NCBI RefSeq assembly: GCF_042242105.1 | Contig: NC_092016.1 | Location: 9,190,501-9,254,500, forward strand | Direction of reading: 5' to 3' | Source of the DNA: Pempheris klunzingeri | Lineage: Eukaryota; Chordata; Actinopteri; Acropomatiformes; Pempheridae | Length of the DNA stretch: 64,000 bases | Shown: one piece after another, positions 8,293 through 46,441 of the stretch | Layout: each line of letters begins with the position of its first letter | How positions within the stretch are numbered: the stretch's first letter is position 1 | Made by a program: the position numbers and the translations under genes | The notes under the pieces: generated by a model | Databases searched by the model: none | Seen by the model: the letters and a program-made list of their open reading frames with translations, nothing else | What the model was told of the DNA's origin: nothing

Positions 8293-9533
8293 TCAAGTCG
8301 ATGGTTTGGCTTTTCCCTGGTCCTCCACCTTTTTAATTGCTGCCTGAATCTTCGTCTGGTCTCCCAAGAGCTGTCGAGGTTTCACAGGCTTAAGGTTTTC
8401 ATCCAGCTCAAGCAGCACAGGTATCCCTGTAGGTAAAGTCACGTTGGCAATATCCCCATTCGATATACCTGTTGAAATAAGAACAGTAATATTAGGGTCA
8501 CACCAGACACACTCTCCACAACCACGCTCTTATTTTGCATTAGTCCTATATGCATGGTTGTGTATTGGCAAAAGTGTGGTGATAACACAATCCCAGCCTG
8601 TATGTGGATGTTTCGTGTTGCGTAACATTATGTAAAAATCAAGATGTGTTAAGCTACTGAGTGCCCCGGGGCACCTGGAGCCTCCCCAGCTTATGAGTGC
8701 GATGAAATGTCAGTGTGGAGTTCACAGCCACAGCCAAATGTAACATAAACTCAGTGGCCTTTTTGCATAAGTTCAACCTTCCATTTCTGGAGCTGAATTC
8801 GTCCTTCCCAATTTGGTGACTAGAGGCAGCAGCCAGAATCTGTTGCTGAATTCAACTGAACGAATTTGCCGCACAAAGACAAAAGCTGAGAGAGCACAGT
8901 TTACAATAGCTTGGGTCAGTTCAGTAGCATACCTTCCAGGTGTTTCAGCAGAGCCCTGCAGCTGTTTCCATGAGCTGAAATGAGCACAGTCCTTCCTTTC
9001 TTTATCTCTGGCACCACAGTGCTGTCCCAGTATGGCAGCAGCCTGTCCAACACCTCCTTCAGGCTCTCTGCTCGGGGAAGGTTCTCCTTTGGCACGTCAC
9101 AAGTGGTGTATCTGCGATCATTGTAGATTTCAAGGAAGTAAGGATGGGATTCATCAATCGCAGGCGGAGTGATGTCATAGCTCCTTCGCCACAACTTCAC
9201 CTTTTCCTCTCCATGTTGCTGAGCCATCTCTGCTCGGTTCAAGCCAATCAGGGCACCGTAGTGGCGCTCGTTCAGTCTCCAGGACTTGACCACCGGTACC
9301 CACTCCTGACCCATAGCCTCCAGCACCAGCCACGCTGTCTGGATGGAGCGGGTGAGTATGGAGGTGAACACTAAGTCGAAGTTGTAGCCCTGCTCCTTCA
9401 GGAGCCTGCCACAGTCCTGGGCCTCCTTCACCCCATCCTCGCTCAGCCTCTGGTCAACCCAGCTGCAGAAGCGGTTCTCTTTGTTCCAGGCCCCCTCCCC
9501 ATGCCTCAGCAGAAACAGTTTGTACTTGGACAT
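8293..9533 (-). CDS. bpgm: Bisphosphoglycerate mutase
   Basis: Two coding exons on the minus strand, 9533-8933 and 8468-8293, join in phase to a 258-residue protein; human BPGM has 259. The enzyme makes and breaks 2,3-bisphosphoglycerate and has weaker mutase activity, in the cytosol. The start matches the family N-terminus MSKYKL. The phospho-histidine motif is RHGEGAWN (H11). Residue 14 is glycine, as in BPGM, where glycolytic phosphoglycerate mutases have serine, so bpgm rather than pgam fits. The second active-site histidine lies in ISAHGNS near residue 188, just before the splice (GGAAG|GTATGC). The C-terminal exon carries the family's [15 protein letters not shown]. An acceptor at 9557/9556 shows that an untranslated exon precedes the start. 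Call is secure. Confidence 0.97.
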
Positions 9534-10056
9534 CCGAAGAACCAGCAGCTCAAACCTGCACACATTCAGCAGAAATAAACAAAAGAGTTTGGCAGTGCTA
9601 ACAGAAGTGAAAGTCTTACACAGAGTCGAACAGAATACCACAAATATCAAGCTTACAATGTACAGCCTTAGTCACAGGTCTGTGTCTGAACTGAGTACAG
9701 GAGCAGGCTCTTGGAGGCATGGCCAGCAAAAGGTTAGAGGTTATCTTAAAAAAGTGACAGGCTAAAGGCAGACAGCTACGCCAGTCACTCTAATTAACTA
9801 GCCTTAACCATAGGCAGGCCACACAACAACGACAGATAACGTTAGCTAACCACTCTGTGCAAATATTTCATGGGATGCTTGGAGGTTTTTAGCAAACCTG
9901 AGAGGATGGAGGGAGGTGTTGCTATGTAAATGACCGCTGATATACAGCGTTTATAACACTATGGCCGCTCGGACCACCATACAAAAAAAACAGAACAAAA
10001 GACATGAAGCAAACTAACCTCAAAAAGATCAGAATATTGTTAAAATGTCGTCTTAC

Positions 10057-11942: not shown

Positions 11943-14900
11943 CTACTGTCCTGCATCAAACAGCTTCTTCCTGCCCTCCATACCAGACATGGCGTCCACG
12001 TTCTTACGCCAGTCAGTCACCTCCTCTTTCTGTGGGGTGAAAAGATGAGTCTGAGTCAGCTCACTGATTAAAACAAGGCTGTTGTGGCCATTTGTCGACC
12101 ATGACTAGGCATGCAATGTTGGGGAATATCGCAATCAAATCAGGTTTATTGCCAAGTAAGTTTTCACATTAACAGGAATTTGCCTTGATGTATTAGTACA
12201 TTATCAAGAAACATCAATATTAGGAATAAAGTAGAGATATTTACAATACAGAATATGAGAAAAATATAATAATGCATGCAATAAAGGGGTGTAGAGAGTG
12301 CAGACAAAGCAAAAAAAAAGGTGGCTATACAATCAATAGTACAATATGATAGAGATGAGTCAAATTGGTAGGCTATAGATAATAGTTAGCCATATTGGTA
12401 TGCTTGTTAATATTAAAAGAAGAATTAGACTCCTGCACTGAACTTGGACAACTAGAGTCTACTTTCTAGTTCTGTGAAAAGGATTTTAACAGTTCAGGTT
12501 TCACATCAGGGTTTCATCTGAAGCTGCTTTAATTAACATGTCACCTTTCTTATCTGTATATACTTGAGAAATGTTTTTGTATTACTGTTAAATATCCTGG
12601 ATTTGGTTGGTAGTTGTTAAATGTGTTTATCTTTTGATAAGTTGGGTGTTTTTAAGGTATGTACCCAGGACTCCAAGCACTGTTACTGAGTGGACTATCC
12701 TCAGTGAATAATCGACTATATAATATAATAATCGAAGTGACAGCACCTAATATTTTGTATAATAAAAAGAAGTTAATGACAGCAGCCCTTACCTTCTCCT
12801 CCTCTTTCTTCACAGTCTTCAGGTTGGCCTTGAAGTCCACAGACTCTTTGACCTTAGCGCCCAGCAGAGCTCCCAGCATGGCGTCAGCAGACACCCTCAC
12901 CCTCCTCAGGTTCGGTCTCTTCATCTTGCCCTTCAGCTCAAAGATCTTCTGACTCAGGTCCTGTATCTTTTTCCCACACAAATGACAAACCCACCTTCAA
13001 CATTACCGTTAAGTTTCCATATATTCAGAACCACTCTTAGAGCACACTTCTTAGACCAAAACAAATGTACGCGATAACTGAGACTACTGATGAGTTTAAA
13101 CAGCGTAATACAGTTGACTTTTTGTGAACAATGGCAAGTGACGAGGTAAGTAGACTGTGCAAAAGCAAGAGGATGTGCATCTTGGCCTTTATTTTAATTA
13201 GTTGAAATATTAATTTTTACAATTATAATGCCACCACTGGGGCCAGTGGCAGACATCTTGGGGGTGGGGGAGAAGGGGATGAGGTGGCAGAAGCAGCTAC
13301 AGGCACTAAGTACACAGATGGAGCAGCTCGAGTGGAGGCAGTGGCGACCGAAGAACAAGGTTTCTTCGGATGTGAAAATTCTAGACGGTCGCCTTCAGCC
13401 AAAAGCTTCAAACTCTTACACGAACTAACAAGCATGCATGGCCACACCGGTGACCAAAGCAAAGGACACACACAGAGGCTGTTTGACTAGATTCTTTGTT
13501 CAGGATGCCATCACTTATCTTTACCTATCAAACAGCTGTTTGCTGCTGTATTATTATTCTGAATGTTATATGTTGGACCTTTAAGATTCACAGTGAATAC
13601 TGGTTATATACACAGTGCATCAGTTTAATTTTTTTATTTGTTTATGCTTAATTTCATGTGAAAAAGGATAAAACTCAAACAGTTATTCACAAATATCACT
13701 TACCTCTGTATTATTTTTCGTCACTTTAGCAGAAATGTCATACCGCTCCTCATCAACCACATCAATTTTCTGGTGTAGCTCTTTGCAAAGATTCTGTGGA
13801 CAGAAACCTTTGGTGTATTAGATGTTTTCTGAATTTGTTTGAATGCAACTGGTCTGGATCACATAATGGAATTCTGATGCTGAAGGGAACAATGCACGGA
13901 GACAGTTTAACGTGTGTACGATGTGTACATTTGTTGTTTCATTTGTATGATTATTCCAATGACTTGGCTGTGTATAGTTTTCATTGGAGGTTCTTTCTAA
14001 TGGGCACTAGTTAAACTGTGAAGTATGAGATTTTGTTTATGACAAGAGGCATTGCTGTTGAGGTTTTCAAATGTCATTTTTTAATGCTTTGAACACCACA
14101 CATTTAAATTACATTCACTTTGATTGTATTTGCGCGACAGCAGAAGAGCTAGGGCTGGGCGATAAGACAATCTCGATACGGGATCATGATCAAATTTATG
14201 TTAATGAGGATGATAAACTCTGGACATTTTTTTTACTCAGCGTTGTTAGATCTAACAGCATGCCGCACAGCAGAAATAAACACGACAACAACCAGTCAGT
14301 CTGAGCGACTGTGAAAGTGAATTATCCTCCAAAGCTGAGGAAACTGTTGACATTAAAGGTAACGCAGCGTCAACTGTGTGAAAATTGTTTGGATATCTCA
14401 AAGATGGTCTGCAAAATTTGCTGTCAGTTGGCACCAACCAAGACAGGAAACAACTTTCACACTGAGAGTACACATTACTATTCTCTGGTTTCTTCAGGCT
14501 GCAGTCATTATTAGGATACTCTTTTAACTGCAGCAAAAATGATTATGATCATATTTTTGCCATATCACCCAGTCCCAGTGAGCGATATCCCCAAACCTCT
14601 GAAAATAAAACCAGAACTAATTGCTTGTGGCTAGATACCACTAAGAGTAGCTGGGAGAAAGTGATTTGGCTTTGACTTTTAAAGTGATTAGACATGTGAT
14701 TTAATTTGGACTTTCTTTAGACCTAAAACTAAAAAAAGTCCTTATGTGGATGAAAAATGCTCCAGTGATAAATGTACCTGTAGATCCTGCAAAGACATGC
14801 CTGACATCTGGAGTGCTGGGACTCTGTCAGCGAGGGTCCTCTCTCGTTCATCTTTTCTGATTTGCTTTTCACTCTCCAGCATCGTCATGGCCTTCTTTAG

Positions 14901-15996
14901 TAGTTTGGTCTGGTACGCACAACAAAATAACACCTCAGTCAGACAGACAATGTATGGTTTACAGCTGTTAAACAATGTATATTCCTACAGCATGAATTAA
15001 TTAGATTATTATAGCATTAATGCAAAACTAGCACAGAGTTACACATCAAATACCTTCAAGAACAGTCTGCGAGATGCAGAGATTTTTGGCTTCGGTTTCT
15101 GGGAAAGAAGATGGTACACATGTCAGATTAATGGCAAAACATTTAAAGTGTGCAGTACAAAAGTACAATTTCCCAGTGGTCATTTTTATGTACATGCAGT
15201 CATTTTAGTCATTATATGATTCAACAAGCACAATGAAAGTCAACATGTATAGTGCTGACTATAGTCTGTGTAGAATTTGACTTCTGTACTTTTTTGTATT
15301 GTAACTTTCTGTTCATTTTTTTTTAGATTATATTGTATCCATCCCATCCATCCATCCATTATCTATACCGCTTATCTTTAAGAGTCACAGGGGAACTGGA
15401 GCCAATCCCAGCTGACATTGGGTGAGAGGTGGTATACACCCTGGAGTGGTCGCCAGTCAATCACCGGTTCAATACACGGAGACAGACAGCCGTTCATGCT
15501 CACATTCACACCTCTGGGCAATTTAGTCACCAATAATCTAATCTGCATGGCTTTGGACTGTGGGGGGGGCGCAGTACCTGGCGAGAACCCATGCAAGTGA
15601 GCACGGGGATAACATGCAAACTCCACACAGAAAGGCCCCAGGTTCAAAGTGCAAACCGCATTTTTACTGGTCAGAAACTGGAGCCTTCTTGCGCTGAGGC
15701 AACAATGCAGACCCCAGCACTGATGTGCTGCCCATGATATTATATACATGAGTTAAAGTACAGTCTTGAAGATCTCTGTTTTGTTCTCTTTGGCGGAACC
15801 TATGGCCACAGCCATATTTAGCCACATTTAGACACAGTACAATCAACTCACCGAAGGACTGTTCAGTTTGGAGGTGATGCCCATAATTCAAGAAGAGAAA
15901 GAGAAAAGTTGTAATTTGTTACAGTTTTTGAATTTCACACTTTGGTCATGGTTTACTTTAGTTTTAGTTTAGTTAAGGTACTTACGCTTCAGACAT
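11943..15996 (-). CDS. tnni1-like: Troponin I, slow skeletal type, copy A
   Basis: Seven coding exons on the minus strand: 15996-15986 (11 bases, MSEA start), 15858-15852 (a 7-base microexon), 15098-15054, 14909-14778, 13793-13704, 12966-12793 and 12029-11943. Joined they keep frame and give about 181 residues, the usual TnI length. TnI is the inhibitory subunit of the thin-filament troponin complex. The N-terminus [13 protein letters not shown] matches slow rather than fast TnI. The TnT-binding segment has [18 protein letters not shown]. The inhibitory and switch region reads [19 protein letters not shown] followed by GALLGAKVK. The C-terminus is [20 protein letters not shown]. The sixth exon may instead start at 12960, which would drop two residues (IQ); homology with the other copies favours 12966. 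An acceptor at 16021/16020 precedes the ATG, so an untranslated exon lies upstream. Confidence 0.93.
12125..12420. repeat. Degenerate interspersed repeat (LINE-tail-like) in intron
   Basis: The words ATCAGGTTTATTGCCAAGTA and CACATTAACAGGAATTTGCC followed by AT-rich tract match, from memory, a very common fish repeat that often forms the 3' end of LINE copies. It lies in the last intron of troponin I copy A. Confidence 0.5.
14151..14576 (+). mobile_element. Degenerate hAT-like element with BED-finger remnant
   Basis: The termini are inverted: GGGCTGGGCGATA at the left and TATCACCCAGTCCC at the right. Between them the plus strand encodes a broken BED-type zinc finger: one frame reads KLFGYLKDG after an in-frame stop at a normally tryptophan position, and after a frame change [17 protein letters not shown]. 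In ZBED1-like hAT proteins these segments form one finger. No catalytic part of the transposase remains. The element sits in an intron of troponin I copy A and does not touch coding exons. Family assignment is from memory of the motif, not a search. Confidence 0.55.
15337..15740. repeat. Abundant teleost interspersed repeat copy
   Basis: A CATC-rich start (CATCCATCCATCCATTATCT) leads into phrases typical of a very common fish repeat: GCTGACATTGGGTGAGAGG, TGGTCGCCAGTCAATCAC, CACATTCACACCTCTGGGC, GCATGGCTTTGGACTGTGG and AACTCCACACAGAAAGGCCC. It lies in the intron between the microexon and the third coding exon of copy A. I recognise the repeat but not its formal class. Confidence 0.7.
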
Positions 15997-16805
15997 GGTT
16001 GCAATTCTGTGTGTCTGCCCTAAAAAAGAAAGAAAGGAACATTTTTAATGTAATATACAAATATCTCAGCTCATTTACTGTGACAAGAAAAAAACAAATT
16101 AAGGAAAACTGACTTCTTCTCACACAGTATATCCTACATACTGTAGGTTGCAGCTCCATAGCAGGGGACACAAACAATGTATGACTTTGTCTAAAGGTCA
16201 AACCGATGGCTGAAAAAATACTCTTTAAAACAGAGTCTAAAATAGTTTTATCTAACAAATAATTACCCGGCAAGTCATCACTCAAGACCATGGAGGTTTT
16301 TTATATACATTTTTTAATAACTTTCAACTTAATAAGCCAAAATTCTTCAATTGCAGATCATTACATTGAAACGACGCAACAACATTAGAAGTAATGGGAA
16401 TAGGTTGCAGAGAAGAACGCATAAATCAAAACAAAACTGGGATGTGTTATTTATATCCTCAATTTAGGCAGATCAGAGGAAGACAGCTGATCTCAAACCT
16501 GAAGTGAAAAAAAACCTTTCCTCCTTCACTCACATGTAAGATGATTCCTTTTTAGAAAGCTTTGATTTGATTGAAAACATGACATACATTTGTAAGAAAG
16601 CACAACCTGCATTAACATGAATGTTGTTTCCGAGGAAAATTAAAACACATTATTTGAATACTGTTTAATCTGTAGTAGAACCAGTTTTCTCAACTCCCAA
16701 CAGCATTTTTAATAGAAAACATTAATTTAGTGTTTCATCCCTTCATATTCTGTGAAATTTCAAAATAAAACTCCTTACCTTATACAGTAGGTGACAAATA
16801 CTCAC

Positions 16806-16900
16806 AGGCGTCTTTTCCTGAGACGAGAAGGGCAGAAAGACGGTAGATATATAGATTCTAGCGCTCATGTGAGTGGCTCACTAAAATAGCCCCTCTGTCC
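16806..16900 (-). promoter_or_regulatory. Promoter and first exon of troponin I copy A
   Basis: On the minus strand the order is GGACAG (16900-16895), CTATTTTAG (16889-16881), an inverted repeat GTGAGCCACTCAC, an E-box CACATG, and then a TATATA box (16852-16847). A splice donor (CGCCT|GTGAGT) ends a short untranslated exon at 16806. CTATTTTAG is one base short of the MEF2 consensus. The same block with the same spacing precedes the other three copies. Confidence 0.75.
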
Positions 16901-17727
16901 TCACCATTCTTGCACTGCTTCTTTGACATCCCATATGTATGAGGTGTGAAAGTTCCTACTTGGACTTCCCACCTGTGATGCTTTCTTAGTGACTCCATGT
17001 CCTCACTAAGGAGGAGAGGGTGAAGTTTGAAGGTGCTTTTATCCAATGTTACAGTATGTGTGTGAAATTAAAGTTGATCCCACATACAATCCAAATCGAT
17101 TAAGAGATCACACACTGGAGGAGAACAGTGGCAGGATTGTTATCTTTTCACTTAGAGAACATCGTCTCATGTTTGTATCAAGTGCATGAACCAAATGTGA
17201 AGATAACGCACTCCCACTGCAATAACTTAAACAAAGACTGCAATCATACTATTTCATTATATTTTTAATAGCCAATAAATTTGAACTTTCTGACAAACAA
17301 AATGGCAAGACATCAGATAACACACTAGCAGATAATTTAACAATATTTCTCTACTATCAACATATTATACTGTGGGTTGTCAAGTGTTTAAGAGTATCCT
17401 GTGATGGTTTGAAAGAGTCATGCTGCCATCGTGAGGCTGCAGAGGAGAATTACTGCTAAAAGTCACTGCGTCATGAGTACAAAGCAAAAGAAAAATAAAT
17501 TCCCTGATGTGAAATACTGACGTGAATGTAATTATCAGTAAAATTAAGCCTTCAGTTGCTCTTCAGATAAACAGCTTTTGCATTATTTCTGTAAAATCAC
17601 AACAAAGAAGACTATTTTAAGGGTGTTACCTCCTGCGGTTCACAAATAGATACGTAAGTACAGACGGTAAGTAATGTTAAGAATTCAATGTAAGAAGAAG
17701 ATCTCTCAAACAAAAGGAAATGTGTCT

Positions 17728-20179
17728 TTAGTTGCCGGAGGCATCAAACAGCTTCTTCCTGCCCTCCATACCAGACATGGCCTCCACGTTCTTACGCCAG
17801 TCAGTCACCTCCTCCTTCTGTTGGAAACATTACCCAACATGGATGCATGTCCATGTCCAAGATAACAACGATAATTTGACCAAAAATACCTGAAAGTTTC
17901 TGAGACACTAAAGTAAACGCCAGGCTTACCTTTTCTTCCTCCTTCTTGACCGTTTTGAGGTTGGCCTTGAAGTCGATGGACTCCTTGTGTTTGGAGCCCA
18001 GCAGGACGCTCAGCATGGCCTCGGCTGAGATCTTCACTTTCTTCAGCGTCGGTTTCTTGAACTTACTCTGGATCTCAATGATTTTCAGGTTCATTTCGTC
18101 AATCTGGCCAGGGGATCATGGGATAGAAAGGATTGTGCTGTTGCCAAATCAAGTAGATTAAATTACCCACATTGCTATTTATTCATTTGATGAATACAAT
18201 GTAGGAGGAAGCTTCCAAGATTGTTATGGATTTTTGTACATTGGGATTTATCATTAGATCCACTTGTAAGAGAGCTGAAAGGTCACTGTTAACTCCAGAA
18301 ACAGTAATTTAATGAAATTTGTTGACTTCCAAGTTTTTAAAGTTCTCCCTTGCAGATGGAGTTTACTCAAATGAAGCCAGATGTTGTTAAAATCTCCAGA
18401 GAAAAACAATAAGTGGATCTTGATTTAAAATGTTTATGTCAAACTAATCCTAAATTATTTAGATTTTGTAATGAACACCTATATACAGTATACTGTGCTT
18501 TTCCTTTTAGGTGTAGGGAGCAACACAAATGTTCAAGTGATCAGATTCCCCTAAAGTTAACAGCTTTTACAGGCTGAGAATAGCCAGTACAAAGTGACAG
18601 AAACTATAAATGAATAAAATATGCAGAGAAAACAATTTTTACTTGCTGTTGTTGCATGTTTATTAACCTGTGGTCAGAAGGTAATATTTGTTTCATTGGT
18701 ACTGAACGCCATATTTGATGTATAGCCAATCTTGGCCCAGTGTATCATTGTTCTAACCCTAATATAGACGGTAAATGTCACCGCGTGGGTGTTAATCGGC
18801 TCTAAACAAATTAGAAGTCCATCATTTACGGCTGTGTTGAATCTTGGTCTAAGTCGTCATAATAACGTGACTCTTCGCTCGTGAGTGATTACAGTGGCGC
18901 AGGTTGTGTTCACAGCCAACTCACAGCATACTCCTCCCAGCATACTGCTGATGCTGTAAAACACAACTGTGAACTGTGTTGACTCCCACAGTATTTGGAG
19001 GCTCTATTTGGTGCTGTAGTAAAGTCAGAGTGTCTCCTCAAAGAAGAAGGTCAGACTTTTATGTCTGTTATGTCGTGTTATTCTCAGTGTTGCCACTTGG
19101 AGGCAATGTCTTTTCATTTTTAGCTGTTATGTGTTGCAAACCTATCTTGCTTTAAGAAACGTCCATATGCATAATTTTATCTTCCCACTCACTCTTTACA
19201 AGCTCACCTCCTTCTGGTTTTTGGATACCTTCAGACCAATATCATACCGCTCCTCATCTACAACATCAATCTTGTGGTGCAAGTCTTTGCAAATTTCCTG
19301 TAAAAAAGTAAAAGACACCCTCTAGTGGTACTAGAATATAACAGTAACTCAAATGATTGTAAAACAGATTATACTGATATGAAATACCATCAGATCTTGC
19401 AAAGACAGACCAGACAGATTGAGAGGAGGAACTCTTTCTGCCAGAGTAGCTTCTTTTTCCTGCTTCAGCTGCTCCTTCTCCTCCTGCAGCATCTGTGCAG
19501 CAGTTGTCAACAGTCTAATCTGAGGAAAAAATCAAAATGAATAGATGAAAAACACCTTTTTCTCTTTCACTTTCTTTTTTCACTCTTTTTTCACCCATGA
19601 ATGTGACACATTCCTCTAAAAACATGAATTCTCAACACGCATCACAGCCATTTCTAATGTTACAGGATACTTTACACAACACTTCATGCTGGTTAATGAC
19701 CTTGAAATGCACAATGATGTGCCTTCTGACATCTTATATGAAAATGCAATTGATCATTATAAATAAATTGAAGACAAATACACAGATAGAAAAAAATACA
19801 TCAAAACATCCTAAATATAGACAAAACCTACCTTTAACCCCAGCCTTCGAGAGGAGGAAATCTTGGATTTTTTCTAGAATTTACACATTAAAATATTAAT
19901 TGTAAAAATATTAATAAACCATTACAATATTCATCTATCTCTGTATATATACTATATATACCATCACATTTGCAAGCATGATTTTATGGCCTTAATAGAC
20001 AAATGGAGGATTGAAAAAAAGATGTATGATAGACACTTACAGGTCTGCAGGAGCATTAAGAAGAGGGAGAAAAGAATATTTGCTCAATGAATATAAATAC
20101 ATAGTTTACAGTATACTTTGGAGCTATCAATGAACACATTCAAATAAACCAAAAGTGATTATACTCACGCATCAGCCAT
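17728..20179 (-). CDS. tnni1-like: Troponin I, slow skeletal type, copy B
   Basis: Seven coding exons on the minus strand: 20179-20169 (start MADA), 20044-20041 (4-base microexon ACCT), 19873-19832, 19519-19388, 19297-19208, 18103-17930 and 17817-17728. They join in phase to 180 residues. The N-terminal segment is MADAPKKSKISSSRRLGLK. The inhibitory region is unusual: SKFKKPTLKKVKISAEAML, with serine where most TnIs have glycine and lysines where they have arginines, followed by the classical LLGSKHK. The C-terminus ends RKKLFDASGN, unlike FDAGQ in copies A and C. The TnT-binding exon has [18 protein letters not shown]. The acceptor at 20201/20200 shows an untranslated exon before the ATG. 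All splice sites are GT-AG. Confidence 0.93.
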
Positions 20180-20764
20180 GATTGTCTTAGATTCCCAAAC
20201 TAGAATTGGAAAAGTAAAAGAAAATGTAAACTGTGATCTTCTCAAATTTAAACCACTATGCGTTAAATTGCAAACAGAATTTCCTTCACCTTTAACACCT
20301 GTGTGCTGAAAATTGATGATGTCGTTAACCTCAAAGTATGCCACCCACTCCAAACATTCATTGGCTAATTAAAGCTGGTTGCACAAAGTTATTTACTGCT
20401 CACTCAATTGCATTTCGCAATTTAAGGCGGGTTGGACTATTTTATGTACAAAACAAGTAGTCATAATTAGTGATTGTCTTTTGTCAGTTACAGAACATGT
20501 AATCAAAGATAGATATAGGTTATAGAACAGATATAGATATTGGACTTTTATTTTTCTCCTCATTCATGAGGGATTCAAATGAAAATTCACAAGAATTGAA
20601 TAAACTGTTATTGCAGTTTCAAATACATCTAAATGACTTAATTGCTGTTTCACACGCATGCATTTCCACAGGATAGAATACTATAAACACAATAACTTCA
20701 AAAGCACATCTGTCATATACAAAGTTTCAAATAGCTGAGTTAGTGCATGTGGTAACAACTGACA

Positions 20765-20840
20765 ATTCAATTCAATACAACTTCATTAATCCATGAAGGG
20801 AATTGGTTTTGCGCATAAGTAAAAACAAACAGGAAACAGA
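20765..20840. repeat. Short fragment of an interspersed repeat
   Basis: AATTCAATACAACTTCATT and AATCCATGAAGGGAATTG resemble the common fish LINE-tail sequence 'TTTATTAATCCCTGAAGGGAAATTG'. It lies between the first two exons of troponin I copy B. Confidence 0.4.
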
Positions 20841-21232
20841 CATAAATACAGACAGACAATAACAAGCCAAAGAGCTGTTTGGGACTTTAAATGAACTGGA
20901 AAAACAAACAAATAAGGCGGACAGGCATTTACTTATTTCAGTTCAACTTTGAAAGCATGTGTGTCACATGTTAAGTTTCACAGTGCTCAGTCAGTGCATG
21001 TGTTAACATAACTGACAAGAGTCTCCGCATAGGTGGCAAAAAAGGTGAGTGGCCAGATAATCCAAAGGCATGCAAAATGACAGTGATCAATTTGCTGTTA
21101 ATCTTAATCACAAGATTATCCAAATTAACAAAGGAATGATAAAATACTACAGACTGAATTAGAGATTTTAGTCATTGCATTAAACTCACAGCATGCTGAC
21201 ATATAAGATGTAGAATATTAAAAACTCTGTAC

Positions 21233-21388
21233 CTTCTTGAAGCTGAACAACTCCTTGAGCTGCACCTCAAAACTGATGAGGGAGGGAGGCAGCAATCGAC
21301 TTTCTGAGAGACGATGATGGAGAATAATCAATCAAATTTATAGTGTCTGTGCCAAATGTGAATGTCTCACTAAAATAGACTCCTGTCC
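21233..21388 (-). promoter_or_regulatory. Promoter and first exon of troponin I copy B
   Basis: Minus-strand order: GGACAG (21388-21383), CTATTTTAG (21378-21370), near-inverted repeat GTGAGACATTCAC, then a TATAAA box (21342-21337) at the same spacing as in copy A. A donor (AAGAAG|GTACAG) closes an untranslated first exon at 21233. A start site near 21310 is estimated from the TATA box. Confidence 0.75.
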
Positions 21389-24060
21389 GTGCTACTGCTA
21401 CCGTCTCTCCACCAACAAGTGACATTGACTGTTGCACATACGTCACCACAATATTCAGACAAGAAAGGAGGTAATAAAACTTCATTCATGAGCATTTGGC
21501 CATCTTGGTTGTGGTTTTGACAACACCTGTTGGTGGAAGTGACAGTGAGCATTTAAAGAGGTGAACACATTAATGCTGGGTCAGTGTCACACATTCACAT
21601 TTGACCAGGGCCAGCTTGTTGGAGTTTGGATCAAGTTGTCAAGAAGGACAGAAAGGAGAAATCAGCATAGTATTCACTTGTCCTGCACCTCTATTTATAG
21701 AACAGGAAGCACTGTCCAAGAGCGGACCTGGGCCGTCTCAAGATGTCCATCTATAGACATCGAACAGTGTCGCTAACTGTGACTGAAGAGGTTTAATTAT
21801 CCATTCCCATATTGTCGTGGCCACATCAGTTGTATGTCTTTAATCTGAACATGATAGTCATTGCTTTGTTCATAGCAATTTGCAAATTCACCCATACTCA
21901 CACTTTTAAAACAAAGTGCAGAAAATGAATGAGAAAGAAAGCATGTTTTCTATTTAAATAAAGACAGCAGTGTTGTAGTGATCTATTTGCTTGGACCACT
22001 TGCTGCTGTTTTAAAAACTGTTGCTTATTGCTTATCACCTTCCATCAATTCAAATGGAGCCATTTTCTTCACATTCGCCTCATTATTGCAAAAAAATCAG
22101 AAGTATAATGTTCAGTGCTCGTCTTCCATCCACCTTACTGAATGTACATCACTGTTCCTTTGCATGTGTGTGGTCACTTTTGTCGCCTTATAACTCATTA
22201 CAGGACCACCTTGAAGGAAAGAACAAAGCCAAATGTTGGTTAGGTTTTATTTCGGGGAGTAGAGGAACGAGGACAGGTGCTGGTCAGGGCTTGTTGGTTT
22301 GTAAACTGAGCTGGCCAGAGTTCAATCTGCGTCATTGTTGTAACGGGGAGTCAAATGATCAGTCCCTCAAAGGGCTGCGACCCATGCCCTCATATAAGAA
22401 TAGCTAATAATTAAACAAGAATAGTAGAGAGCAAACCTTGGGTCAAATACTGTCTTTAGATCTAGTGTTCTTCTTCTACTAGTTGCGTTAATGGATCGAT
22501 TTAGAATCGGACGTCCATAAAGATGGGATACTCCAAAGAGACAGATTAAAGAAAAATGGTCAAAGCAGATGCAGAAGAGGCTGAGATATCCCAGCCGCTG
22601 GTCTCTCTTATCATTCTGGAGAGTTGAATCACTATTTTTGTCATCTTGGGTATTTGGAGCAGTTCGTTATCAAGTGAAACATATGGATAGCTTCCTTTGA
22701 ATTTGCAGAGATGGCGGCTTCACAGCAATTTTGCCAACATTTTATTTTCCACATTTTTTTTTATTGTCATCAAAGGGGAGAAATTCCTGAAAACTCGAGG
22801 TTTGAGAATCAAGGCTGACAAACATTAGCATGGCATTAGAGCCCTGTCTGGTAAACTCCCACATCTTTCAAACTTCACTCCTCCAGTTTATAACACACAC
22901 TTTGTGTTCCAGCAGTTAACTAGTTAACTGACTTTTATGTGTAAATCAATGGTGTTCCCTCATAACATGGAATGATTTTCCAAATGAGAAGTAGTGTTGA
23001 GAAGCAGAAACTCACGACATCACCCAAGGCTCATGGTACTCAAAGGAGGTTTGAATTAAAGCATTTACTAAATTGCATTGCTGTTTTAACACACTGGAAG
23101 GAGGTTATTATCATGACTAGGACTGCAGGGAATGATTTCTTTTCATTACTGATTTATCTGATGATTATTTTATGGTTTAATTGATTAATCATTTGATTTA
23201 GGAAACTGAATTTAAATGTTTTGGAAATAATCTATTTACTATCATATTAGACAAATAAAATGAGCTAATCTGGAACTATCAGGGTTTTTTGCTTTAAAGA
23301 TGATTAAACAATTAATTGCTAATCACAATTGCTGCCAATGAATTTATTCAGTCTTCTAATTTATTCAGTTGTTGTTCTGTTTTTTAAGCGTAATAATAGT
23401 GTTAATTGGCTCTGTGTGCTCCTGCTGCTCCCTTGTTGTCTCACTGAGGGGTTTACTGCAGCCCTGAACCTGCGACCTCTCTTATTTTTGGACGTTTGCA
23501 GTTCTCTAAGTGAACTTTATGTCTGATTTGATTTACAAAGATGATTTAACAAGTTTGTTCTCTGCTGCTGCTGTTGACAACTGCAAAGTCCTGGAAGTGT
23601 CACTACCATCAGACTGATATTGTGTCCCAATCTAGTGTCAAGAAGCAACTCAGATGAAAAAGTAGATATTTAAAAAGAAAAGTACAGCATCGGTTTTCTG
23701 CATTAATCACAAGTATTTATTATCATGACGTAAACCAACCTTTTCCAGGCTTTTTAAGATCAAGACTCAGCAAATTTCACTATATTTTTTATCTGTTATG
23801 AAAGTGTAGACAAGTAAACATTTAAAGTTTTCCAAGCACCAACATCACAAAACGACAACAGAATGCAGCTCATTTACATTCAAAATATTCACAATTCCCC
23901 ACAAGTCCTTTGAATCAGAATATTTTTGGATAATGTAAAAGTCTATATGCACACTTACACATACCCACAGACTATTGACTTATTATTGTGAGCAGTGACA
24001 TTATCTTTATTTTTCTCTCTATTCTTGTCAGCATTCATATTTAAAATGTCCATTAATATA
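21389..24060. other. Spacer between troponin I copies B and C
   Basis: No coding exon is supported. A fragment around 23125-23320, with ATTGATTAATCATTTGATT, resembles the common fish repeat that begins GGGCTGCAACTAACGATTA. The rest is ordinary AT-rich sequence. The left end carries DNA upstream of copy B's promoter, the right end the 3' untranslated region of copy C. Confidence 0.45.
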
Positions 24061-24064
24061 CAGT

Positions 24065-25882
24065 CTACTGTCCTGCATCAAACAGCTTCTTCCTGCCCTC
24101 CATACCAGACATGGCCTCCACGTTCTTACGCCAGTCAGTCACCTCCTCTTTCTGTTCATAAGAAGAAAATAATTCTTAGTGATGCAGTATTTATCACAGA
24201 TGAACCCCAAAATAATATAATATGACAGATTTGAGCCACATTTCAAACCTAATCTGATTTTAAAACCAAATAAATCAATCTGCTGTTATAGTTACAACCC
24301 TTACCTTCTCCTCCTCCTTCTTCACAGTCTTCAGGTTGGCCTTGAAGTCCACAGACTCTTTGACCTTAGCGCCCAGCAAAGCTCCCAGCATGGCGTCAGC
24401 TGAGATCTTCACCCTCTTAAGAGCAGGACGCTTCATTTTACCCTTCAGCTCAAAGATCTTCATCGACAGATTTTCAATCTGCAGAAAACGTTTTAAAATG
24501 TATGTGAGATCTATGCTGTTGTGCACCACCAGTGTTAACTAATCCTAATAGATCACAATGTAAATACACTGAACAAATAAAGCTATTGGCTAAATCGTAA
24601 ATAAAAATCCATGGGATAAAAGTAAACATGATTTCTATTAATGCTTCTGCTGCTTTTTGCAAAGCATCCAGTAAGATGACCATTAAAACACATTCATAAC
24701 GTAAACATGGAATTACATCCACATGTAAATCAAATGAATATGAATAAACTGTCACCTCCTTGTTATTTTTGACCACTTTGGCCTCAATGTCGTAGCGCTC
24801 ATCATCTACACTATCGATCTTCAGGTGCAGTTCTTTGCACAGAGTCTGCAGACAGACAGAGAATCAAGAGAAGAGAATCAAATGGATTTAACAAACTAAT
24901 GAAAACTATGTAAGTCCTCTGGTTTGTTGCAGCTCTCAAACTCAAAGTTTATATTTTTCAGTGTGTTGATGCAGCACTCTATTGTTGCATTTTATGTTAT
25001 TTATGAAACATTACACCATGGAGTGTGGTGTCTATTTATTCTTTTACTATATTGATTGTTACACGTAATATTAGTGGTTACTGGTTATGTGTTTTAATAT
25101 GTGAAATAGTACTATAAGTTATTAATGATTTAAAGGTTCTTCTAAATAACAGCATCAGCTAAATGACCAAAATATAAAATGTAGACGACAAGGCAGCTCT
25201 CCCCTGATGCACCTACTGTATATGAATATGCTGAATGCATGGCATCTTTATGCATCAGAGGGATGCTTGCATGCCGAGCATTTGAACCATGCTGTTTCGT
25301 TGTGGTGCGATGGGTGGCTCATGCAGTGATCTGCACATACCTGAAGGTCCTGCACAGACAAACCAGACAGCTGAAGAGGAGGCAGTCTCTCATTCAAAGT
25401 AGCTTGTCTCTCCTGCTTCTTTTCCTCCTTCTCCTTCTCCAACATCACAGTTGCCATTTTCAGCAGCTTGGTCTAAATTGAATGAAAAATTAGAATGATT
25501 ATGTTTTTGGCACACATCGCTATTATTTTGTGAACTAGAATTTTGATTTGCATTGAATTATTATCAGTTGTAAAGATAAAGACGTCAGTACCTTGAGAGC
25601 CAGTCTGCGAGATGCAGAGATCTTTGATTTTCTCTACAAAAAAGCAGCCGACAAAGATGTAATGAAGCAACAGTTGTAAAAAAAAAATACACATTCTATG
25701 TAAATTTAGATTTTCTTTGAGAAGTTGAGTAACTTACCGGTCTACAGTGGACATTATGATGTGGGAAAGGGAAAAAAGAAAAAAAAATCATAGTTAGTAT
25801 CGACATGATAAAGGTCCAAAGAATTTTGATTTTACAAATTGTGATTTACATAATAAAAAATGATAACTTACGCCTCAGACAT
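24065..25882 (-). CDS. tnni1-like: Troponin I, slow skeletal type, copy C
   Basis: Seven coding exons on the minus strand: 25882-25872 (start MSEA), 25741-25738 (4-base microexon ACCG), 25633-25592, 25472-25341, 24845-24756, 24478-24305 and 24151-24065. They give 179 residues in one frame. The N-terminus [19 protein letters not shown] is very close to vertebrate slow skeletal TnI. The TnT-binding exon has [18 protein letters not shown]. The inhibitory and switch region is [19 protein letters not shown] plus GALLGAKVK. The C-terminus is [20 protein letters not shown] then AGQ. The last exon differs from that of copy A at about one base in 90, including silent sites. The acceptor at 25891/25890 places an untranslated exon upstream. 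Confidence 0.94.
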
Positions 25883-26635
25883 GATTGCCCTGGGAAAATG
25901 AAGTAATACACACCAAAGTCAGAAAATTGCATTATTCAGATACAGTAATAGTTGTAGCTGTGTATACATGCAGTATTATGAACATGTTCAGCTTTTATAA
26001 ATGATCTAACATTTAGTTATTTTTTGATTCATATTCTGTTAATTCACCTCTTGCTGACTGAGCTGAGTTCGAGTCATGCAGACCCTGGTATGGTAACATG
26101 CCAGCATTAAGCCTTTAAATTAGCAGCACTGCATGCGTGAGTGCTGCACATAGTCTGAATTATATTCTTTTTTTAATCTCACTTGGAGTCGATCCATTTT
26201 GAAAGCAGCCAGATCAGAAGCAAAATCAGAATTTGTCCTTGCCAAATACCACAAATATATGTAATAAAACATAAATGAGAAGTAATGAGAAGTAACTAAA
26301 TTAACTAAGTAACTAATTTTAAAGTAGCATTTGTTAAGATTATGAAAAATTATAAGATTTGCTGCTACTGTAAATGGCTAAAGTGCACATTTGACTTACT
26401 TGAGTGAATTTGAACATGCATAATCTAGATGTGTCATTTAACTATTAAATACATAGATTTTATAACAAAGTAAGTAGATATAATTTTAATAATCAAACAA
26501 CATTTTCAGTGAATTTGCATGTTCATGTTTTTCCATCGGTTTGATTACGCTCCTGCTGTTCCAGATACATGCAACAGGTGAAACTTTCTTATATGTTCTT
26601 AAACCATACAATCATCATCAGAAAAATCAACATAC

Positions 26636-26768
26636 CTTATTTATTGCTGCAGAAAGACTGTTGAGGTGACCAGTGGCTGTCTTTAAGTGTCAAGAAGAAA
26701 ACCCAAGTCAAATTTAATGGCCCCTATTGCCTTCTGTGAGTGGCCAACTAAAATAGCCTCCACTGTCC
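26636..26768 (-). promoter_or_regulatory. Promoter and first exon of troponin I copy C
   Basis: Minus-strand order: GGACAG (26768-26763), CTATTTTAG (26756-26748), a weaker version of the inverted repeat (GTTGGCCACTCAC), and a TATA-like TTAAAT (26717-26712). A donor (AATAAG|GTATGT) ends the untranslated first exon at 26636. The element-to-TATA distance of about 31 bases matches the other copies. Confidence 0.7.
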
Positions 26769-27463
26769 CGACAGCCAGTGTACTGTATATCACTACACCT
26801 CTACATGGCATCGCCAGTGCCAGTTTAACCACTATACTCACATTGATCAGCACAAGGAGTACAGGGTGTTAGGACAGCCTTGATCCCAGTGTACATTTAT
26901 TTTCTCTGTCAACTGAATCTCTGTTATTGGATTGATTAAAAACTGATTCTGATAATCTGAACAAACCAAAGAAACCAAGCAGAAATTGTCATCATGGTTA
27001 TTTAATCGGCATCACATGTATTACAGAAAGTGTGGCAGTGCCACCATCTGTATAACACAAATACTGCACTTTAAAAGACACACTTGTGACTCTAGTCAGC
27101 CTTTTCTTTGGCGCAACTTTAATATGCGAAGAGTACTGCATACTACACACTTTATATTATTACATTCACTGCATACAATTGTATTTTTTTGCATACATGT
27201 TTATATTAAATCAAGATTAAAACTATTTTTAAATAGTATAGTGCCTTTATGTAATCTTGTTTAAAAGTGCCTGTGGTTGACATCTTTTGTTTGTTTTATT
27301 TCATCCTCTAATGGAAACCTTCTTGAATTTGGACGATGACTCTGAAATAAACATGAACAAAAAGGGATTTAATAAAAAAAAAACTTGAACTTTGCAAACT
27401 TGAAGTTTACCTCAGTAAAGATGATTTGTTGCTAATATAACTTTGTTTCACACAAGCACCTTC

Positions 27464-28595
27464 TTATTGTCCAGCGTTAAACAGCTTCTTTCTGCCCTCC
27501 ATACCAGATTTTTCCTCCACGTTCTTACGCCAGTCAGTCACTTCTTCCCTCTGCAAAATACAGTTAGATTATGATATTATTTTTATGCAGTTTCTTATTT
27601 TGTGAACGACTGTTTCAGACACCAGCTTCACCTTGTCGTCCTCTTTCTTCACTGTCTTAAGGTTGGCCTTGAAATCTGCCTTCATGAGTTTAGACGTGTC
27701 GCTGTATGCATTCAGCATGTCGTCTGCAGTTTTCTTCACCCTCTTCAAGTTGGGCCTCTTTACTCCCTTCAGCTCAATGATTTTGTGGTTCAGCGACTCA
27801 ATCTGTGCAACAGACATCACAGTTTAAGATAAACCAATAACCACTCAACATCCTGATTGATCAGCAAATGTATGGCCTGTTATTTGTGAGGTCGTGATTC
27901 AGTTATACTGTACCTCTTTCTCATTTTTGTCTACTTTAATCTCCATATCATACCGCACTTCATCTACAACACCAATTTTACGATGTAGGTCTTTGCAAAG
28001 GTCCTGTAGAGAAAAAGAAAAAACTGTCAACGTGATGTGAAGTAGTAATGACTGACTCAGCATAATGTTCTGTGTCAATACCTGGAGCTCCTGGACTGAC
28101 AGACCTGACAGCTTCAGCGGAGGGAAGGACTCATTCACAACTCTTTCTTTCTCTTGTTTCCTCTCTTCACTTTCAGCCACCAGCATAGAAGCTGCCTTCT
28201 TTAGCAGTTTGGACTGTAAGATAGAAAAGCATTAATGAGCCTGGATAAAAACCTAAAGCAGCCTCAACTTATGTGGCACACCCTCACCACCACGTACCTT
28301 CAAGTGCAGTCGGCGTGTCGCTGAATATTTTGGTTTTCTCTGCGAGAAAGATGTGAATACTTAATACATCGAATGGAGTCATTCATATAGGCTTTCACAT
28401 ATCTTGCATGCATAATTCTGACCCAATACTGATTATTCATTAATGATTGTGGAAGAACTCATCTTGACTCACCGGTCTTCATCAGCACATGACAAGAAAA
28501 GCAGAGGAAAGATACATATCTCTCATTATTTGATATACAAATAGTGTACAGAGACTGTGGCTATATTTAGAGGCCAATACTCACCCCTCAGACAT
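27464..28595 (-). CDS. tnni1-like: Troponin I, slow skeletal type, copy D (divergent switch region)
   Basis: Seven coding exons on the minus strand: 28595-28585 (start MSEG), 28476-28473 (4-base microexon ACCG), 28339-28298, 28213-28082, 28003-27914, 27802-27632 and 27550-27464. They give 178 residues. The N-terminus reads MSEGPRKPKYSATRRLHLK. The TnT-binding exon has LCKDLHRKIGVVDEVRYD. The sixth exon is one codon shorter than in the other copies. There the inhibitory segment is GVKRPNLKRVKKTADDML, and the classical switch and TnC-binding stretch (ALLGSKHK in the family) is replaced by NAYSDTSKLMKADFKANL. The C-terminus [20 protein letters not shown] is retained. The gene is compact (about 1.1 kb of coding span) and intact, so it is probably functional rather than a pseudogene. 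Confidence 0.93.
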
Positions 28596-30035
28596 GTCTG
28601 CAGCTTACAGTACCTTTGGAGCAGAAACAAAGTTTTTTTCTCATTTTAACTGCAGTTTTACATAGCTTCACAGACTGGACATATTATTGATTAGTTTTAG
28701 TCTAGTCTAATTACTTTTTATGTCTTTCTCCAGTTAATGTGATTGCTAATGATAATGATGATTAACACTTTCTTTTATTTAATCTAATTGCTTACAGATA
28801 CATTTCACTATTTTTCCAGGACCACATAATCTTTGCTATTGTTATGAAGGCCTGATGAGGAGCTGGTTGCATGGCTATATTTGGCCACATTGCCCCCATG
28901 TTTTGCTGTGTCCCAGCAGCTGCTGTTGCCCCGATGATGCCAGATAAAGCCAAGCAGCAGAAAAGTTTGGCAGCCAAGAGGGGAACAACATCAAACCTGT
29001 GAAGAGAGTAATTTAAAAAAGCCAGATACTTTAACTCTTCAGAGTCTCGGACCGCCCGTCGGCGTCAAAGACACAAACACAAAGAAAGCTAAGCAGTTTT
29101 AATGGGAAACACAAAGGTAAAATGAAAAGTAGTAAAAAAAAACGTCCATTTTACCCCAAGACTCTGGAGGGTTAAGATCCACAACACTGCTTCTTTTCTA
29201 CTTGGTTGGTTATTGCTGGTGTTTATCGTCTAAGCATAAAGTTCCAGATTATCTCCTCCTCCTCCCCGTGGCGATGTCTCCATTGTCTTTGACCTTCTCT
29301 TTGTGGCATTGACTTTACAAATACTTTTTACTTTTAATTAATTTAACTATGGCATTATATATTGATAAATGGATGTAGGTGTTGGAGAAGGATCAGAGCA
29401 TGTCAATACTTCTGAGTCATCACAGTGATACATCCAATTTAAATTAAGCCAGCCACACATGGTGCGAAAGTCAAGGTAAACAAGCAAGGCAGGAGGCGAT
29501 TTTAAGAAGCCTGCAGCCTTGCCCTTCCACCCAGAAGGCTGCCAGTTCATACGAGTGAGCCATCATCACTTATCACACCAGCTTTTCAGCCGCAACGATG
29601 GGTCAAGCGTGCTGTTACCAGCCGCCAATTTGTTGGCAGGCAGTTTAAGCCTCAGGTTACATTTCCTCATTGAGAGGATCAAGAGATCATAAAGAAGCTT
29701 GAGGTGTCGTAGAAGTCAAAGAGCCGTGTTCGAAAACTTGTTTTAAGACCTTGACAAAAGTTGTGACATAGCAGAGATTCCCTCACATAAATACCAGCCG
29801 TGTCAGGGGCATGCAGATATGCAGTCTTCATTACTTCCTTCATATGAAGACTTTACTCGACTTTTGCCAACATTTAACTGTAGCGATGGATACTTAGATA
29901 GCCTGGCTGCTCTCACAGCAAGACAAGAGGTCTCCTAATCTTGCAGTCTCAAGTTTAAGAGCCAGTTTCAATGTCTAATACATCTGACTATCTCCAGATA
30001 AATAGAACTGGTTGATTACTTGATATGAATCTTAC
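28596..30035. other. First intron of troponin I copy D
   Basis: Between the untranslated first exon and the ATG exon. No second gene is supported. Short frames on the minus strand near 28792-28977 and 29347-29550 lack family features. Confidence 0.5.
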
Positions 30036-30172
30036 CTTGAAAGTGAGAGGAAGTCAGCAAGGGCAGCAGCAGTGGTGAGTCAGGAAAACAAAAAGCACTT
30101 TATGGTTATTAGTCAAAGATTTATGTGTTCAAAGTCTCATGTGAATGGCTCACTAAAATAGACCCTCTGTCC
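30036..30172 (-). promoter_or_regulatory. Promoter and first exon of troponin I copy D
   Basis: Minus-strand order: GGACAG (30172-30167), CTATTTTAG (30161-30153), GTGAGCCATTCAC, an E-box CACATG, then a TATA-like CATAAATC (30125-30118). A donor (TTCAAG|GTAAGA) ends the untranslated exon at 30036. This copy and copy A match base for base over most of the upstream block. Confidence 0.75.
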
Positions 30173-30489
30173 ACCTGACAATTCCTGCATCACAATGCAA
30201 CCCGTTTTGATTTGTCCTCAACCCGTGACCCATTTATTTCATGTGATTACATTGCCCAAGGGCGCACCTCACGCGTCCCTCACCTAACTGACAGCTGAGT
30301 TATCCTCTGCACTGATATCAGGTGCCCTGAGCATGTTTGCTTTTTAAATTTGTGTCATGGGGTGTCCTGGCAAAGGCAAACATCAAAGACTAGATGTTTT
30401 AAAGGTGCCTTTCAAGTCAATTTAAAAAAAAAAAAAAAAGTTGATGGGTTTAAATTCTTTTGATAAAATATTTGTTTTATTCTCCACAA

Positions 30490-30800
30490 CTGGGAGTATA
30501 ACGCTAACATGCTGATGTTGAGCAGGTTTACTGTTTACCATGTTCACTGTTCAAGCATGCTAGCATGCTAATCATTGCTAAACACAAGTAGAGATGAGGA
30601 TCATGAAAATGTTTTGCAGGTATTTGGTCAAAAAATTGTTGGTTAAGTTTAAATCTTAACAAGATTAAAGGCTAGATTAAAAGATCACCAAAGCAGTAGG
30701 ATTCATCTTCTGGGGACCATGAATGTCTGAACAGAACTTTATGTTGATTCAATCAGTTGTTTAGGTTTTTCAATCTGGACCAAAATGGCTGACAGACAGA
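30490..30800 (+). repeat. Interspersed repeat, ATGCTAGCATGCTAA family, copy 1
   Basis: Contains ACGCTAACATGCTGATGTTG, CATGCTAGCATGCTAATC, GCAGGTATTTGGTC, GATCACCAAAGCAGTAGGAT and TCATCTTCTGGGGACCATGA. These phrases recur in the same order at 56945-57680 and, reversed, at 60170-60600. I recognise it as a widespread percomorph repeat. Confidence 0.65.
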
Positions 30801-35900: not shown

Positions 35901-36995
35901 GTAATTTTTCTTTTGGTTGATTTTTTCCCCCTTAGATTATCTCCAGCGGACTTACATTATAAAAGCAGCTGTGGCGCTGCTCGTCATCGGTGGTTGTCTT
36001 GTTTATTTACTGTGGAGAGCATCTCATAAAGGTTTGCCTTCTTATAAATGTGCTGAATAGAAAATGCAGGCTGATTTGATAATTAATCAGTGAACCACAC
36101 CCTTCTCTCAGATCCTGTGAAAACATCCTCATCAGCTGCCAAAGAACAACCACAAGGATTTCAAGTACAAGAGAGAAGAAGAGTCCTCGTTATTTACTCC
36201 CTCGACCACCCTTTATACAAAAACATTGTTCTCAGGCTTTGTGCCTTCCTGGCGAAAAATTGTGGCACTGAAGTGGTCCTGGATCTACTGGACTCTACAA
36301 GACTGGGAGTGTTGGGAAGCATCCAGTGGTTGGACTGGCACAGAGAACAAATAGAAAGCTCTCCAGATAAGATCCTAATCCTGTGCTCACGAGGAGTACA
36401 AGCCAAATGGAGAGCCATGTGTGGATTCAAACAGGTTTCTCTGAGAGAGGACGCCCGCTCACCTGTTGGTGACATGCTCAGTCCGGCCCTCAGCCTCATG
36501 GTCCCCCATCTCATCCGGTCTGCGTCGTTTGAAAAGTACATAGTGGCTTACTTTGATGGTGTTTGTTCTGAAGAAGACGTCCCTTCACCCTTTAACATTA
36601 CAGTACGATACAAGCTGATGAAACAGTTTGAAGAGCTCTTTTTCAGGATCCTGGACGCTGAGAAGCATGAACCAGGCAGAGTGAATCTCATTGAAGGGCT
36701 CTCAGAGAACGAGTACTATCACTGTCCCTCAGGCAGAGACCTGCGGGACGCCATAGAGGCTTTTCATGCATACCAGCTGGAGCATCCACAGTGGTTTGAA
36801 GATGAATTACTAGAGAGCTCAGAGTTGGAGGATGAGGAGACCTCAGATGAGATTTATGATGATACAGAAACCACCACAGACGTCATTCCATATTGTGCAC
36901 CTGAGTCGGCCCGAGTCACCAGTCATGTGCAGACAGGACTTTACATGGCGGGAGACTTTCAGTTGAGCTCAACCCTCTTAGTTTCGAGAACCTGA
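32903..36995 (+). CDS. il17ra: Interleukin-17 receptor A-like protein
   Basis: Eleven coding exons: 32903-33001, 33107-33128, 33393-33536, 33713-33831, 33937-34057, 34848-34895, 34994-35151, 35269-35343, 35443-35512, 35936-36031 and 36112-36995. All join in phase to about 611 residues. It is a single-pass cytokine receptor. The chosen start gives a signal peptide (MIHVPFFCVWLTAGLT); an in-frame ATG lies upstream at 32780. The ectodomain follows human IL17RA in order, including GSLWDP and SQCEMLLMIQPFF. The membrane helix (residues about 292-312) is in exon 10. The last exon starts the cytoplasmic SEFIR domain at about residue 340: RRVLVIYSLDHPLYKNIVL, LCSRGVQAKWRAMCG, then YIVAYFDGV. The chain ends soon after the SEFIR region and lacks the long tail of human IL17RA (866 residues). 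AATAAA at 37234 is a likely polyadenylation signal. Confidence 0.93.
35575..35853. mobile_element. hAT-like MITE in il17ra intron
   Basis: Ends are inverted: CAGTAGTTCCCAACCTTTTT at the left and GGTTGGGAAACACTG at the right, each starting CAGT on its own strand. Inside are phrases of a widespread vertebrate element: TGGTGACCCCTTTAATATAG and TAGAGGGGTCCCTACCCCCA. No protein is encoded. The flanking eight bases do not form a clean target duplication. It lies between exons 9 and 10. Confidence 0.65.
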
Positions 36996-46392: not shown

Positions 46393-46441
46393 CCTTGTGC
46401 TCTGTGACCAGCTTCAACACTCACCCTCGCCGTGCCGTAGG

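Follow-up and report, generated by a model that had tools for sequence, protein, structure and literature searches.

Which bases do tandem copies of a troponin I gene keep in their promoters while the DNA around them diverges? The question is raised by a stretch of 64,000 nucleotides from the fish Pempheris klunzingeri (contig NC_092016.1, here C5; C5:9190501-9254500 of a genome of 645,938,514 bases in 439 contigs). This stretch, hereafter the window, carries four troponin I genes, A to D, on the minus strand. A previous description, made from the letters alone (the sequence-only reading), held that the four promoters share one group of short motifs at a fixed distance from a TATA-like box. 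We find that a single block of 32-34 bp recurs upstream of all four genes. The block is probably a proximal promoter module specific to the TNNI4 class of troponin I, and it is likely to have been kept by purifying selection in four old tandem copies.

The block and its position

The sequence common to the four copies, read on the minus strand, is GGACAG, a gap of 4-6 bases and then CTATTTTAGTKRGMCAYTCACA; the whole block is ~33 bp. It reads GGACAG-5-CTATTTTAGTGAGCCACTCACA upstream of A (16868..16900, minus strand) and GGACAG-4-CTATTTTAGTGAGACATTCACA upstream of B (21357..21388, minus strand). Upstream of C it reads GGACAG-6-CTATTTTAGTTGGCCACTCACA (26735..26768, minus strand), with the left arm of an inverted repeat lost. 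The block of D is GGACAG-5-CTATTTTAGTGAGCCATTCACA (30140..30172, minus strand). Three parts are invariant in all four blocks: GGACAG, the ten-mer CTATTTTAGT and TCACA. The gap from GGACAG to CTATTTTAG is 5, 4, 6 and 5 bases in A, B, C and D respectively. CTATTTTAG occurs five times in the window, always on the minus strand, against a shuffle expectation of 0.85. Four of these occurrences fall in the blocks; the fifth lies in intron 1 of A (16237-16245).

The order proposed by the sequence-only reading (GGACAG, a few bases, CTATTTTAG, an inverted repeat, a TATA-like box) is present in all four copies. The repeat had been called weaker in C, and rightly so. GTGA-N5-TCAC is complete in A, B and D, and its left arm is GTTG in C. 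The inverted repeat was rejected as the conserved unit: GTGA is lost in C, and only the right arm, TCAC(A), is invariant.

Each block is followed on the minus strand by a TATA-like box. The boxes of A (TATATATC, 16846..16853; TATATA) and B (TATAAATT, 21335..21342; TATAAA) are good, and both lie 27 bases below CTATTTTAG. The boxes of C (TTAAATTT, 26710..26717; TTAAAT) and D (ATAAATCT, 30117..30124; ATAAAT) are poor, and lie 30 and 28 bases below CTATTTTAG. The spacing had been put at 28-31 bases. It is nearly constant in all four copies, as described, but our anchors give 27-30 bases; measured start to start, the distance is 36-39 bases.

Further down, still on the minus strand, are splice donors (AAG/gt) of putative untranslated first exons. 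They are at 16777..16778 (A), 21231..21232 (B), 26634..26635 (C) and 30034..30035 (D). The AAG/gta donors are 75, 110, 82 and 89 bases below the box start in A, B, C and D. These positions would fit a transcription start just below the box. If transcription began higher, the block might instead act in RNA, or as a splice signal through its TTTTAG. The weakness of boxes C and D speaks for such a role. However, a donor lies 75-110 bases below the box in all four genes, and the DNA before CTATTTTAG is purine-rich and not a pyrimidine tract. Furthermore, Rfam has no match in the window at gathering scores. We judge a role in RNA or splicing to be highly unlikely.

Conservation against diverged surroundings

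Four-way identity was scanned in 33-bp windows, in an ungapped register, across 1.5 kb above and 0.4 kb below. It peaks at 0.78 on the block, against a mean of 0.27. Windows starting more than 60 bases off the block do not exceed 0.34, which agrees with the earlier remark that the surrounding DNA has diverged. Within the 22-base core, CTATTTTAGTGAGMCAYTCACA, 18 of 22 columns are invariant across A-D. For four 1,750-bp stretches, a simple independent-base model gives this a chance expectation of ~4e-14. Chance is excluded as the source of the shared block. Among the paralogs of this one genome, the block behaves as a functional element should: it keeps a fixed position above the TATA box while its flanks diverge.

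The four tandem copies are old, since their proteins are 58-81% identical and their synonymous divergence (dS) is 0.78-1.49. Core identity is 18-21 of 22 bases in the six pairs, compared with 52-68% at fourfold sites. Taking fourfold sites as the null, the binomial P values are 7e-5 for A-D, 1e-4 for B-D, 1.3e-4 for A-B and 0.002 for C-D. This null is generous to a neutral reading, because the promoter flanks no longer align.

Whole gene regions were then compared with coding exons masked, excluding two trivial matches of a shared stretch with itself. The block is the top non-coding alignment in five of six pairs, and second in B-C. Among the alignments listed, no other non-coding stretch is shared by all six pairs. 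With unmasked promoters of ~1.75 kb, the block gives the best local alignment in five of six pairs; in A-C it is second, outscored by neighbouring coding exons. The block thus recurs throughout although dS is so high. Purifying selection is the best reading.

Several points weigh against a selected promoter module. Two pairs are weak against the fourfold null (A-C, P 0.012; B-C, P 0.05), and the C-D alignment of unmasked promoters barely beats its shuffles (score 20; shuffle maximum 19). Excesses also arise in controls that bring in other troponin I loci: five of nine such pairs beat their own shuffles, none of them on the block. Two of these (C22-C5s and C11-C2) are coding exon 4, and the others lie elsewhere (C5s-D, 35 against 21; C1-A, 23 against 19; C22-A, 20 against 18). 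The poor boxes of C and D belong with these points, as do the fits to known binding sites given below. Finally, the evidence base consists of paralogs of one genome.

The weak pairs also bear on the idea that the block is residual similarity, left by recent duplication or short gene conversion and without function. The genes are tandem paralogs, and the promoters of A and D resemble each other across 73 bp (78%, E 1e-10; 16845-16914 and 30117-30189). However, introns and flanks no longer align, synonymous sites have diverged to the extent given above, and what stands out is the same 32-34 bp in every copy. It is unlikely that conversion would have been confined to so few bases, and the same ones, in four genes. 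Residual similarity is, in our estimation, very improbable, and we retain selection on a promoter module as the preferred reading.

Two side observations concern these comparisons. A and C make the closest protein pair (81%; A-D, 63%), a relationship at odds with that of the promoters. Exon conversion might explain the mismatch, as might expression in a shared domain. Separately, a 43-bp stretch above D (30698-30740) is nearly identical to one at the troponin I locus at C5 14.6 Mb (35 against 21 in shuffles). This stretch is probably a dispersed repeat.

Distribution across the genome

Genome-wide searches covered 646 Mb, with simple repeats and very common words skipped. The core CTATTTTAGTGAGMCAYTCACA is found exactly at A, B and D only. 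Allowing two mismatches adds C and two unrelated-looking places, L005 and L007, neither of which is followed by a TATA-like box within 60 bases. L005 is at the end of an open frame reading GHGSFGAVYF, a kinase exon that we take to be TAOK. With up to three mismatches there are 36 places, compared with 38 for the reversed control.

The pattern GGACAG-N3-7-CTATTTTAGT has eight places in the genome, against two for its reversed control, and four of the eight are A-D. YTCACA is absent at the other four (on C6, C8, C13 and C24). As for boxes, C6 has TTAAA at 42 bases and C13 has TAAATA at 25 bases, with none within 60 bases at C8 or C24. The C13 site lies inside an open frame of 198 amino acids on the opposite strand. 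A search for CTATTTTAGTGAG-N19-28-TATAAA returned B only, and its control returned nothing; A was missed because its box is TATATA. All further candidate carriers of the block were rejected as chance-like places, lacking either YTCACA or the box.

Further troponin I genes are present on C11, C22, C2 and C1, at C5 14.6 Mb and in a cluster at C5:62-106 kb, with a lone exon match at C22:5.5 Mb. The genome-wide search for the core, at up to three mismatches, places no match at any of them. A matrix scan of five 3.6-kb troponin I stretches and of exon loci L032-L061 found the block only where the loci overlap the A-D cluster. Exon 2 was found by pattern in C11, C5s and C2. It was not found in C22 or C1, whose promoters may lie outside the scanned 3.6-kb stretches; the genome-wide core search has nothing near them. 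Without the rest of the block, CTATTTTAG has two occurrences in the C5s stretch and one in the portion of a tnni2-like cluster that was scanned. An exact search of IMG/VR for the block returned no match. The whole block was found only at A-D by our searches of this genome.

These distributions bear on the idea that the block is a general striated-muscle promoter element, which merely happened to be noticed first at A-D. The excess of eight places over two is what such an element might produce. Yet half of those places are the cluster itself, and among the others, all without YTCACA, C13 alone offers an AT-rich box at roughly the expected spacing. The core shows no excess at three mismatches, and the other troponin I loci examined lack the block. 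A general element is therefore improbable, though a shade less so than residual similarity. The sequence-only reading had proposed a composite muscle element kept by selection. The fixed order and spacing among four paralogs sustain one half of that description; the other half does not stand as a general muscle element, since our searches found the whole block at A-D only.

Candidate binding factors

Forty bp per copy were scanned with 29 consensuses and 300 column permutations, uncorrected for the 29 trials. No consensus among the 29 tried is exact in all four copies. MEF2 (YTAWWWWTAR; a MEF2 consensus is printed in PMC3157005) has 3, 2, 3 and 2 mismatches in A-D, and 63 of 300 permutations fit as well. 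The SRF CArG box (CCWWWWWWGG) has two mismatches in each copy, with 17 of 300 permutations as good. For AP-1, NKX2-5, the E-box CANNTG and MITF (TCACATGA) the corresponding counts are 6, 14, 15 and 0 of 300. NKX2-5 has one mismatch in A, B and D and two in C. The E-box is exact in A, B and D, at differing positions, and absent from C; MITF is exact in A and D only. In sum, SRF fits somewhat better than MEF2, and AP-1, NKX2-5 and the E-box do as well or better.

The earlier view that CTATTTTAG is one base short of the MEF2 consensus is correct, and no copy has a full match. CTATTTTAG differs from CTATTTTTAG by one missing base, and the half-site spacing in the A-D blocks is wrong for MEF2. Compared with a CArG box, CTATTTTAGT has its C, its run of six A/T and its G correctly placed. 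A full MEF2 match, CTATTTATAG, does occur on the plus strand at 21691-21700, ~310 bases above block B; no conservation of it was seen in A, C or D.

Two troponin I control elements offer a comparison. According to PMC3170710 and PMC3157005, SURE and FIRE are the fibre-type elements of rat slow and quail fast troponin I, and the former source states that both need their MEF2 sites. Like the A-D block, both are compact composite elements of troponin I genes. In the same sources, SURE is 128 bp and upstream, and FIRE is 144 bp and intronic, whereas the A-D block is ~33 bp and just above the TATA-like box. SURE is described there with a full E-box, MEF2 and CACC sites and a bicoid-like motif. The set of E-box, MEF2 and CACC motifs is incomplete at A-D: no full MEF2 or CACC site is in the 40 bp, and the E-box is in A, B and D only.

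A MADS-box protein of MEF2 or SRF type could be the central factor, bound to an imperfect CTATTTTAGT and stabilised by partners on GGACAG and TCACA. We offer such a protein as a first guess only, right about one time in three. CTATTTTAGT has the length of a MADS site. A weak MADS site with partners comes first because SURE and FIRE need MEF2 sites. Alternatively, the module may be functional but the factor on CTATTTTAGTGAG not a MADS protein. An NKX2-5-like homeodomain protein on TTTAGTG could fill this role, and so could a protein of the bHLH or bZIP type, or a factor not yet described that reads one long site as far as TCACA. MEF2 does no better than permuted columns, and AP-1, NKX2-5, the E-box and MITF fit somewhat better, which favours such a factor. 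But these consensuses too fail to match exactly in all four copies, within an uncorrected set of trials, and the invariant ten bases of CTATTTTAGT are AT-rich like MADS sites. We give a non-MADS factor a little under even chances.

On the promoter-module reading, the block would lie ~60-100 bases above the transcription start, judging from the TATA-like box and the leader-exon donor. Most probably it is where a small protein complex docks, nearly fixed at ~3.5 helical turns from the TATA-like box. Docking could help to place the transcription machinery, which fits the position, the short invariant core and the near-fixed spacing. The docked complex would switch on the four genes together. That the module drives transcription, and does so in muscle, is inferred, as is the identity of every factor.

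A second module in the tnni2-like cluster

The troponin I cluster at C5:57-107 kb is presumably tnni2-like, by its signature; the tree of exon 7 does not resolve it. The region taken was C5:57400-107412 (L040, L042, L044-L046, L048, L058 and L071-L076), leaving out 71777-83899. Five of its six copies have CCATAA[A/T]GAG 38-46 bases above a TATA-like box, and all five have TATTTC ~40-50 bases higher. Between the two motifs lie ATTGGTCTG (t5 and t6), ATTGGTCTC (t1), ATTGGTTTG (t2) and GTTGGTCTC (t4). A sixth CCATAAAGAG, at 87053, has no box, and the promoter of copy t3 was not found.

As at A-D, tandem troponin I copies here keep an AT-rich element above a TATA-like box. Unlike at A-D, the element is accompanied by TATTTC and an inverted CCAAT-like ATTGG, with looser spacing. 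A search of the proximal promoters of A-D turned up none of its pieces. The genome thus has two tandem clusters of troponin I genes, each of which retains a module built on a similar plan. The tnni2-like cluster also contains a tandem array at C5:90500-91700 (L074), with 28 TATAAA in ~1.2 kb, many of them ~28 bases apart.

Locus and class of the four genes

All four genes are on the minus strand, with exons 2-8 at 11943..16019 (A), 17728..20199 (B), 24065..25889 (C) and 27464..28613 (D). Their coding exons are open. The Pfam Troponin domain is matched in exons of A, B, C and D, which places all four among troponin I genes, and copy C also aligns with troponin I chains of known structure (best E 1e-59). 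Exon 3 is a 4-base minus-strand microexon in three copies: ACCT in B (20041-20044), ACCG in C (25738-25741) and ACCG in D (28473-28476). In A this exon was not found, and exon 7 begins two codons too late in our gene model.

Next to the cluster is an exon of BPGM (bisphosphoglycerate mutase; 8916..9671, minus strand), which marks the TNNI4 locus. According to PMC9825255, CALD1 and BPGM sit between TNNT4 and the TNNI4-5 cluster, and TNNI5 is on another chromosome in gar and zebrafish. We therefore name genes A-D TNNI4 by neighbourhood, with BPGM next door. The name tnni1-like, used in the sequence-only reading, is not borne out. When exon 7 of 15 troponin I genes is placed in a tree (58 columns, genes of this genome only, with D a long branch), A-D form one side of a branch with support of 94/97.

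Plus-strand genes elsewhere in the window include a SEFIR domain (36087-36995), Indigoidine_A-like exons (38699-39297), which we take to be of the pseudouridine glycosidase type, and a RING exon (46367-46624), presumably CNOT4-like.

Implications for troponin I regulation

According to PMC9825255, the TNNI4 class of troponin I was absent from every amniote surveyed and lacked a formal description before 2022. PMC11170199 names zebrafish tnni4a as a ventricular muscle gene, PMC9534849 lists it among sarcomere genes, and tnni4b.1 appears in a table of muscle transcripts from sole (PMC6754371). Among the matches listed from titles and abstract openings of the open-licence literature, none describes the A-D block.

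A ~33-bp module that, alone among the non-coding DNA, recurs in all six pairings of four old duplicates offers a small, clean test of promoter grammar, that is, of sites, order and TATA phase, in the co-regulation of muscle genes. It also singles out the bases to mutate. A bolder suggestion, which we think rather unlikely, is that each tandem troponin I class of fishes keeps a private promoter code; that of TNNI4 would be a nine-base relative of the MEF2 site, one base short, phase-locked to the box and dependent on partners. If so, the four genes would stay co-regulated while all the surrounding non-coding DNA turns over, and the TNNI4 site would stand for a distinct specificity, so far undescribed, belonging to a MADS complex or to a new factor.

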